NCBI GenBank assembly: GCA_021777755.1
Contig: JAJYDE010000019.1
Coordinates: forward strand, 1-64,000
DNA: 64,000 nt
Source of the DNA: Deltaproteobacteria bacterium
GTDB lineage: Bacteria > Desulfobacterota > Syntrophobacteria > Syntrophobacterales > Syntrophobacteraceae
Reading direction: 5' to 3'
The position numbers and the translations under genes are program-made. Every line of letters starts with the position of its first letter. Positions within the stretch are counted from its first letter, which is position 1. The notes under the pieces were generated by a model. The model made no database searches. It was given only the letters and a program-made list of their open reading frames with translations, and was not told the origin of the DNA. Positions 24,827 through 61,668 of this stretch are shown here, piece by piece.

Positions 24827-25058
24827 TCAATCAGCCTTGAATGGGCTCCATTGCAGAGCTCGCGGCCAGGCTTCATCGCCAATGTTGATCTTGATCCCTG
24901 CGGGTTCAACACCATTTTCGATCGGCCGCAAAAAAGGAAACGCCCCCCTGAGGGGTCGCAGATCGTAAACCATCACTAAAGATATCTCCAGATCATATTC
25001 AATCCCCGCCTTTTTCACCAATTGGACAATTTCCTCGCTCAGGGCTGTCGCTTTAAAT
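24827..25058 (-). pseudogene. C-terminal coding fragment of an unknown protein, cut by repeat A
   Basis: On the minus strand an open frame reads KATALSEEIVQLVKKAG, IEYDLEISLVMVYDLRPLRG, AFPFLRPIENGVEPAGIKIN and IGDEAWPRALQWSPFKAD before a stop at 24827. The composition and hydrophobic spacing look like a genuine protein end. Its 5' limit coincides with the boundary of repeat element A at about 25055, with a stop in frame inside the element. It is probably the truncated tail of a gene interrupted there. I do not recognise the family. Confidence 0.45.
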
Positions 25059-25327
25059 TCGGCTCGACAAAGCCTGTTTCCCGTTCACCAGCTTTTTCTC
25101 TTTCTGATTTCCTTTTCTGATTGCCCTTTCTATTGCCGCCCCTATTTGCCGCTTCAGAATGCCGCTTCGCGCTTCAAAACCCCTTCGTGATACAAAACCC
25201 CATAGGATTGCCCACCGTCGTCGGCCACCGGCCCTTTCGACCTTCGGCCCCGATGACAGGGTTCTTTGAAAACCGAATGATCCATTCCACACGCTGCGGC
25301 TCCATGCGGGCTGCGTGGACCCCGGGT

Positions 25328-25348
25328 GCACCGGGCTGAGCCCGGTGC
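25328..25348. repeat. Perfect 10-bp palindrome inside element A
   Basis: GCACCGGGCT and AGCCCGGTGC are perfect reverse complements around a single G. It lies in the part of element A that aligns poorly with copy B, where no equivalent palindrome is seen. It could form a very stable cruciform or RNA hairpin, or be the footprint of a secondary insertion. Confidence 0.6.
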
Positions 25349-25432
25349 GCTCAAAGCGCTGATTCTCATCGGCCCTCACGCCATATCGCCCATTTTCGCG
25401 CGCAGCTCTTCACTCTTACTTTTTCGCCTTTT

Positions 25433-25550
25433 CCCCATGCTGTTACCATGCTGTTACCCATGCTGTTATTCGTGCTGTTCCCCATGCTGTTATCCTTGCT
25501 GTTCCGATGCTGTTACCATGCTGTTATCTATGCTGTTATCTATGCTGTTA
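25433..25550 (-). repeat. Tandem array in element A, ten 11-13 nt units
   Basis: Minus-strand units in order: TAACAGCATAGA twice, TAACAGCATGG, TAACAGCATCGG, AACAGCAAGGA, TAACAGCATGGGG, AACAGCACGAA, TAACAGCATGGG, TAACAGCATGG, TAACAGCATGGGG. AACAGCA is nearly invariant; the last 2-5 bases vary in sequence and number. The array is bounded by GGGTAAAAAA before and AAAAGGCGAAAAA after. Units abut directly without unique spacers, so this is not a CRISPR. Confidence 0.92.
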
Positions 25551-25809
25551 TTTTTTACCCAATAAATCTAAAATGGATGTTAAATCGGCATGATAGACAA
25601 ATTGGCCAAAAATAAATTTCCCCAATATCAGCCTGAGTCTCCCGGCGAGTTGGCCATAATTGCAAAACCGGGGATGCAACCCTTCGAAAAATTCGCTTGG
25701 CCTGCCTCGGCCGGAAAACCGCAACACCAATACAGGCCTTGATGGACCACAGGGCTCCTTGCGACCGCTTCCCCGCCGGACCTAAAATGAGGCTGACTCC
25801 AAAAGAGGG

Positions 25810-25838: not shown

Positions 25839-25849
25839 GCCCAAATCTT

Positions 25850-25932
25850 GCCGAAGTGGTGGAACTTGGTAGACACGCCATCTTGAGGGGGTGGTGGGGA
25901 GACCCGTGCCGGTTCGAGTCCGGCCTTCGGCA
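25850..25932 (+). tRNA. tRNA-Leu (anticodon GAG)
   Basis: GCCGAAG pairs with CTTCGGC in the acceptor stem. The D-arm has GTGGAACTTGGTAGAC, the anticodon loop TTGAGGG is centred on GAG, a long variable arm (GTGGGGAGACCCG) marks class II, and the T-arm has GGTTCGAGTCC. GAG reads CUC/CUU leucine codons. CCA is not encoded. Confidence 0.95.
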
Positions 25933-26166
25933 TCATGGAAAACGGCCGCGAAATTGTGGAACCTGCCAAAAGTCGCGTCGACATTATTTCTCGACACTGC
26001 AACTAAACGGTTTATGAACTGTTCGCCGGGGAAGGACTCCGTTTCTTTTTATTGCGCCCCGAGCATTGCGAAAATAGAATCCGTTGCAATCACGGCTTGG
26101 CCAAACACCCCGGATTTCCATGAAGAAGCAAGGTAAGGCCATTTTGGCCGGATTCCGGCCTACACC

Positions 26167-53029: not shown

Positions 53030-53128
53030 TGGCGGAAGCGCATGGGAATCGAACCCACCTGGGAACGCCTTCACGCCCCCACACCGGATTTGAAGTCCGG
53101 GAGCCCCACCAGTGAGCTTGGCGCTTCC
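53030..53128 (-). tRNA. selC: Selenocysteine tRNA (anticodon TCA)
   Basis: The 99-nt minus-strand RNA has the special features of tRNA-Sec: an 8-bp acceptor stem (GGAAGCGC with GCGCTTCC), a long D-stem (GGGGCTCC region), anticodon TCA in GGACTTCAAATCC as in E. coli selC, a long variable arm (GTGGGGGCGTGAAGGCGTTCC) and T-arm GGTTCGATTCC, with an encoded CCA. It has its own strong promoter. It shows that the organism inserts selenocysteine at UGA; no selenoprotein or selA/selB/selD gene is evident in the window. Confidence 0.95.
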
Positions 53129-60877: not shown

Positions 60878-61573
60878 GCGGGTTTTTGCTCCATCGCGAG
60901 GCGGGCAAATCGAACGAAATTCATCGAAAGCTCTATCACCGCTTTTGCTATTATGGCCGATCTGGCAAGAATCTCATGCTGATCAATTGAAAAATTCATT
61001 TTTGTTCATTTGGCTATCATGCGGATTTAACGTGTGTTTCAGCTTTTTTGGGTAAAAAATAACAGCATGAATAACAGCACGGGAACAGCATGGGAACAGC
61101 GAGGATAACAGCATGGGTATCAGCACGGTTAACAGCATGGTAACAGCGTGGTAACAGCACGGGGGAAAAGGGCGAAAAACGTAGGGCTAGGACCGAAGCG
61201 CGAAAATAGGCGATAGAACGGGCCGGTGAATGAAAATCGGTGTTTGGAACTCTCCGGGTGGACGGGGGGCGCTCTACGAGTGTTGCGAGGCGCGCCTCCG
61301 GGGGGTCTCACGGCAAAGGTTTGCGGATGGACGCGGGATTGGTGATACGATCATTCGGTTTTCAAAGAACTCTGTCATCTGGGCCGCGGCTCTAAAGGTC
61401 CGCCTGCCGACAACGGTGGAATCCACGGGATTTCATATCACAAAGGGTTTGGAGCCTCAAAGCGGCGCCCTGAAGCGGCAAATAGAGGCGGCAATAGAAA
61501 CGGCAACCAGAAGGGGAAAAAAGTGGGCGGGAGGGATGGAGGCTTTAAAACTGGCCTTTTCGAGCTGAATTTC
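60878..61573 (+). repeat. Dispersed repeat element, copy B (~0.7 kb)
   Basis: This copy reads on the plus strand and aligns with element A (25055-25725, minus): the head (TGCTATTATGGCC, TATCATGCGGATTTAAC), GGGTAAAAAAT, the tandem array, GGGGGAAAAGGGCGAAAAA, GCGCGAAAATAGGCGATA, CGGTTTTCAAAGAACTCT, CTGAAGCGGCAAATAG and TCGAGCTGAATTT. The middle between the GCGCGAAAATAGG and CGGTTTTC blocks is divergent and lacks the palindrome of copy A. It fills the 0.8-kb gap between a hypothetical gene and an AsmA-like gene. A 112-codon frame (61230-61568) crosses it, but the matching DNA in copy A is in another frame for half its length. Confidence 0.85.
61060..61165 (+). repeat. Tandem array in element B, nine 11-14 nt units
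   Basis: Units in order: TAACAGCATGAA, TAACAGCACGGG, AACAGCATGGG, AACAGCGAGGA, TAACAGCATGGG, TATCAGCACGGT, TAACAGCATGG, TAACAGCGTGG, TAACAGCACGGGGG. The core AACAGC is kept in eight of nine. It differs from array A in number and order of variants, so the arrays have evolved separately while flanks stayed alike. Confidence 0.92.
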
Positions 61574-61668
61574 ACGCGATTGGTCCGCCCTCGCCAGTCA
61601 ATGCCGGTTGATTTGTGATGCCTAAGTCTTCATAATTGGCCCGATCAACAGATGAAAAGGGTGCCAAA

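Follow-up and report, generated by a model that had tools for sequence, protein, structure and literature searches.

Two repeats in the window (the whole stretch of 64,000 nucleotides that was analysed) are members of a dispersed family of noncoding units whose promoter is also that of capsid, portal, and terminase genes, and this common promoter is the main point that a previous sequence-only reading missed. Considering that the promoter is common to the units and the phage-type genes and that both co-occur in genomes of the genus, it is very likely that the units belong to the regulon of these genes, and the promoter sequences lead to the strong inference that units and capsid genes would be transcribed together. 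With less assurance, we consider it probable that the units are dispersed noncoding transcription units of a GTA-like regulon, each with a repeat array that would most likely serve as an iteron-type, transcription-activated origin or else as a packaging-start site.

Homologous units dispersed in the genome

Nucleotide alignment of copy A with copy B gave 71% identity over ~600 bp (E 7e-78). Between their terminal inverted repeats, the whole units span 25040..25704 (copy A; minus strand in the orientation of the previous reading, with inferred transcription on the plus strand) and 60901..61588 (copy B; plus strand, with inferred transcription on the minus strand). All of the blocks that had been proposed to be shared over the full length were found in both copies and in the same order, namely an AT-rich head, GGGTAAAAAA, an array of AACAGC units (10-11 in copy A and 9 in copy B), AAAAGGCGAAAAA, CGGTTTTCAAAGAAC, and a TCGAGC(C/T)GAATTT end. 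Copies A and B are thus homologues, but the earlier description of a two-copy element was too narrow: a nucleotide search of the own genome returned 29 matching stretches, which represent at least 17 whole or partial unit copies. These copies are 68-75% identical over their full length, some of them are internally deleted, and the full ones align end to end; neither a lack of further copies nor a likeness limited to the array was observed. In agreement with what had been stated before, no transposase was present in or adjoining either copy among the genes examined.

The source of the window is a Syntrophobacteraceae-type MAG, and the records of sister species are MAGs of Syntrophobacteraceae or 'Deltaproteobacteria'; such assemblies may be incomplete or mixed, and the 16S gene was not found in five genus genomes. 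Diverged copies, with the 3' array counted, number 16-21 per genome in four sister species and are few in a fifth, and no units were detected in 49 genomes tested outside the genus. The units matched neither CRISPR nor any Rfam RNA, and a role as promoters for particular neighbours was ruled out because the neighbouring genes are unrelated and mostly housekeeping genes. Four copies (loci L056, L059, L063, and L064; contigs C102, C67, C84, and C26) adjoin 3' parts of apparently related histidine kinase genes, and the copies on C67 and C26 have an identical junction, suggesting duplication or joint movement. Just beyond copy A, a second dispersed repeat (window 24951-25038), with ~82-89% matches in C52, C91, and C67, reads as a coding remnant that is separate from the unit. 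A tRNA-Leu(GAG) gene (window 25849-25934, plus strand) follows copy A at a distance of ~145 bp when the unit is read in its inferred direction, and a selenocysteine tRNA gene lies at window 53030-53128 (minus strand).

Promoter, boxA, and repeat arrays

The previous reading took the wrong strand, as the promoter and arrays lie on the opposite one. In the direction of inferred transcription, the unit consists of a TTGCC array with a period of 12-13 bp, an extended -10 element, a boxA, a variable stretch, ~10 GCTGTT repeats, and an A+T-rich block. In copy A, the plus strand carries a TTGCC array of 4-5 units at 12-13 bp (25108..25163, including 25108-25137 and 25121-25150; putative activator sites), a promoter at 25168..25196 whose -35 and extended -10 element (TGATACAAA, 25188-25196, 31 bp past the last TGCC) are both weak matches, a boxA (TTCTTTGAAAA, 25262..25272), and a GCTGTT array of ~10 units at 11-12 bp (25435..25551; AACAGC on the minus strand), which is adjoined by an A+T-rich block of low stability (25552..25640; 73% AT in its least stable 60 bp). 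Copy B has the same layout on the minus strand, with putative activator sites in a TTGCC array (61455..61519, including 61477-61506 and 61490-61519), an extended -10 element (TGATATGAAAT, 61430..61440), a boxA (TTCTTTGAAAA, 61359..61369), a GCTGTT array of 9 units (61060..61163; AACAGC on the plus strand), and an A+T-rich low-stability block (60970..61059; 70% AT in its least stable 60 bp).

Of 33 ncRNA-type units, 31 have the -10 element 31 bp from the last TGCC and two have it at 30 bp; its TG extension is present in 31. Read on the opposite strand, the conserved TTTTCAAAGAGC block is a boxA (GCTCTTTGAAAA) located ~60 nt below the -10 element; a strict boxA occurs in 17 of the 33 units and about half are without it, the chance rate being ~3 in 10,000 per unit as estimated from motif probability. 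BoxA recruits Nus factors against Rho termination, which is established for rRNA (PMC4807359). The spacing of the GCTGTT repeats ranges from 9 to 14 bp across the genus (mode 11, mean ~11.3) and does not keep strictly to a 10.5-bp phase. Because of this variable spacing and the reading frames that it breaks, a protein-coding array was ruled out, and the earlier view that the conserved blocks are not read as protein was upheld. Among 51 units, the least stable 60 bp of the A+T-rich block have a median AT content of 72%, compared with 45% in the window, and only 0.27% of random 110-bp segments are equally unstable. In sister species, an inverted repeat past this block holds the GCTGTT motif, which co-varies with the array in some G007 copies when read by eye.

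A structured noncoding locus had been suggested as one possible identity of the repeats. They do resemble a transcription unit, albeit on the other strand, but a structured RNA received no covariation support, as the covariation term of RNAalifold was +1.75, i.e., a penalty. GGA motifs in hairpin loops, by which CsrB/RsmZ-type RNAs may be judged, were not found in the units, where the motif is GCUGUU and hairpins are unsupported. A sponge RNA, whose ~10 GCUGUU motifs would sequester an RNA-binding protein or a small RNA during GTA production, much as CsrB/RsmZ RNAs do through GGA motifs, would have no need for covarying structure; a long untranslated RNA is what the promoter and boxA imply, and the motif occurs about 10 times per unit and is retained among species, unlike the variable middle of the unit. 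However, the regular 10-13 spacing, the A+T-rich flank, and the inverted motif copy would be superfluous for such an RNA, and 15-20 dispersed copies are many, and we consider this explanation unlikely.

Phage-type genes with the array promoter

The array promoter, without the GCTGTT part, precedes the genes for prohead protease and major capsid protein. It is also located upstream of the T7-like portal gene (PF12236), terL (terminase large subunit), the genes for SLT virion-type proteins and a tailspike-like beta-helix protein, and those encoding a DUF5681 protein and members of a 145-aa protein family. The distance between the last TGCC and the -10 element is 29-31 bp in 15 of the 16 phage-gene promoters scored. 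The terL, portal, protease-capsid, and virion genes are related to T7-like podovirus proteins. On contig C102 of the own genome, the nuo operon is flanked by terL and portal at one end and by protease and capsid at the other. In G007, a profile match directly placed the capsid gene beside nuo, in G000, G001, and G005 a matching order of genes did so, and the phage-type genes of G003 form a single block. More than 20 TTGCC-array promoters, most of them without a GCTGTT array, were observed in G003 (L197-L212), implying that the promoter has spread differently in this genome. The protease-capsid genes are separated from their array promoter by a conserved leader of ~110 nt with a terminator hairpin (GCGCTTGCCCTGGCCCGGCTTAAGCGC ... 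GAGTCGGGCTTTTTT; L227-L232), which has no Rfam match and looks like an attenuator; a similar leader precedes the tailspike-like gene in G007.

Of the 11 genus genomes, the same 7 contain the terL, portal, and capsid genes; 15 further genomes of the family have no capsid gene. Array promoters occur often in these seven genomes, compared with chance-level matches in the other four, and units were detected in six of the seven genomes with phage genes and in none of the four without them; in G005, phage genes are present and the unit was not found. Fisher's p was 0.015 for units and 0.003 for arrays with kinship ignored, and since the genus genomes are kin, they do not count as independent cases of co-occurrence. 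The pN/pS of the phage-type genes is 0.04-0.23 and their dS is high or saturated, indicating long purifying selection. On the basis of these sequences, a conserved and selected phage gene set is the pattern expected of a domesticated one, i.e., a GTA candidate known here from its genes. A capsid search retrieved many related phage-like contigs, whose capsids are as much as 89% identical, and three of these contigs have the array promoter before the portal gene, which indicates a close phage source. In 0.99 Mb of such contigs surrounding the capsid gene, no AACAGC array was present, and a separate DNA pattern scan of viral contigs gave no match.

Array promoters precede genes of the DUF5681 and 145-aa families in two or three genomes (own-genome loci L241:5202-5660 and L240:5558-5995, both on the plus strand; C44 and C21), and both proteins are candidates for a small terminase or a regulator. 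No Pfam match was obtained for the G008 member of the 145-aa family, structure models for two of the small proteins in the regulon were too poor to be used, and no initiator or activator could be recognised in those neighbours of array promoters that were examined. The GCTGTT arrays might be pac-like packaging-initiation sites at which a small terminase (candidate DUF5681) binds, so that host DNA would be packaged from 15-20 points. It is consistent with such a role that the DUF5681 gene adjoins array promoters in G000, G001, and G003, that terL belongs to the regulon, and that dispersed positions suit a GTA. However, the related phage-like contigs have no such array near terL, and the assignment of DUF5681 as a small terminase is tentative, its structure model being of low confidence; in this specific form, we regard the explanation as improbable.

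Possible roles and relation to known systems

In the GTA-like regulon that we propose, an inferred activator would bind the TTGCC array adjoining the -35 element and jointly turn on the capsid, portal, terminase, and virion genes and the 15-20 units. BoxA would let RNA polymerase pass through the untranslated unit, and transcription would traverse the ~10 GCTGTT repeats (at a period of ~11 bp) and then the easily melted A+T-rich block, with the array acting either as an iteron-type origin, from which host DNA would be amplified for packaging, or as a packaging start. A reading of the array as a DNA site is favoured because iteron- and lambda-type origins are likewise made up of repeats spaced at about one helical turn, a meltable block, and transcription that crosses the two, and because Bartonella provides a known case of a phage-derived origin coupled to a GTA. 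We would give the DNA-site role an even chance; its assignment as an amplification origin is tentative and rather doubtful, and a packaging-start site fits nearly as well. Taken as a whole, a T7-like GTA in an uncultured Syntrophobacteraceae-type genus, in which 15-20 dispersed, transcription-fired sites start amplification or packaging of host DNA, is a possibility that we hold to be less likely than not.

The previous reading had also suggested a nonautonomous mobile element, which agrees with the own genome but not with sister species. In the own genome, homology begins abruptly at a ~20-bp terminal inverted repeat (GGCAATCGCATGAAATTCA) with an inverted copy at the opposite end, and a 19-bp pattern of it gave 26 matches versus 0 for the reversed-pattern control. 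The right terminal repeat of copy A (TCAGGGCTGTCGCTTTAAATTCGGCTC) lies at 25039..25065 (plus strand), and the left and right ones of copy B at 60901..60927 (plus strand) and 61562..61588 (minus strand). The C69 copy is flanked by an exact 8-bp target duplication (CCTCTTCC, 8/8) and copy A by an imperfect one (GGCCGAGG / GAGCGAGG, 6/8); none was found in the flanks of copy B. The C69 copy also holds an extra ~1 kb with a truncated Beta_protein gene (PF14350; L060:2429-3286), which has the TTGCC array on one side and the right terminal repeat on the other. No autonomous partner with the same ends was found (the other repeat sites were read for ~150 bp, unannotated). In G001, G007, and G008, the terminal repeats are absent from the unit copies, and homology extends from the inverted GCTGTT motif to just beyond the TTGCC array; therefore, the terminal repeats are an addition in the own lineage and mobility is not the defining trait of the unit. 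The own-genome units acquired the ~20-bp repeats and probably spread in a MITE-like manner. That the units are nothing but a passive MITE, a functionless nonautonomous transposon with a captured GTA-type promoter, would agree with the terminal repeats, the one exact target duplication, and the internally deleted copies at scattered positions, but it is the least likely of the explanations, as the sister-species unit is conserved without terminal repeats and the conservation of promoter, boxA, and arrays but not of the spacer suggests selection.

Like MITEs, the units are short and transposase-free and have ~20-bp terminal inverted repeats in the own genome, whereas a clear target duplication is seen in one copy only and sister species are without the terminal repeats. 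CsrB/RsmZ sponge RNAs contain many short repeats with GGA motifs and have a common upstream activator site; the units share with them the many short repeats, a presumed noncoding transcript, and a common, putative activator site upstream, but have another motif and far more loci, and RNA structure is unsupported. Iteron and lambda origins combine direct repeats with A+T-rich DNA, to which lambda adds transcriptional activation (PMC5043065). The adjoining of a repeat array and an A+T-rich low-stability block is common to the units and iteron-type origins (lambda ori, RK2, and P1), whereas the repeats of the units are shorter (~11 bp) and present in many chromosomal copies.

GTAs of known genetic basis are found in few clades, and RcGTA and the Brachyspira GTA (viriforms) consist of domesticated phage genes that are conserved in the genus and likely located at several loci (PMC9662315). 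The candidate described here resembles them in its domesticated, genus-conserved, and likely dispersed phage genes, but belongs to another bacterial group and is known from genes alone. It would add another, Syntrophobacteraceae-type GTA candidate, with podovirus-related genes around the nuo operon and a searchable promoter signature. In Bartonella, the phage-derived origin coupled to the GTA amplifies host DNA before packaging (PMC6899734). Compared by description rather than by sequence, BaGTA with its run-off replication origin (ROR) is similar in that GTA genes are paired with an origin, a putative one in the case of the units, and differs in having one ROR locus instead of 15-20 small noncoding units and T7-like structural proteins. 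We found no description of multi-copy noncoding units bearing a GTA promoter; as far as we could find, the units would be the first noncoding members of a GTA regulon, and they open direct tests of the way in which a GTA selects or amplifies its DNA cargo. The promoter that they share with the domesticated capsid genes suggests that the units are a novel type of companion element for a gene-transfer particle.
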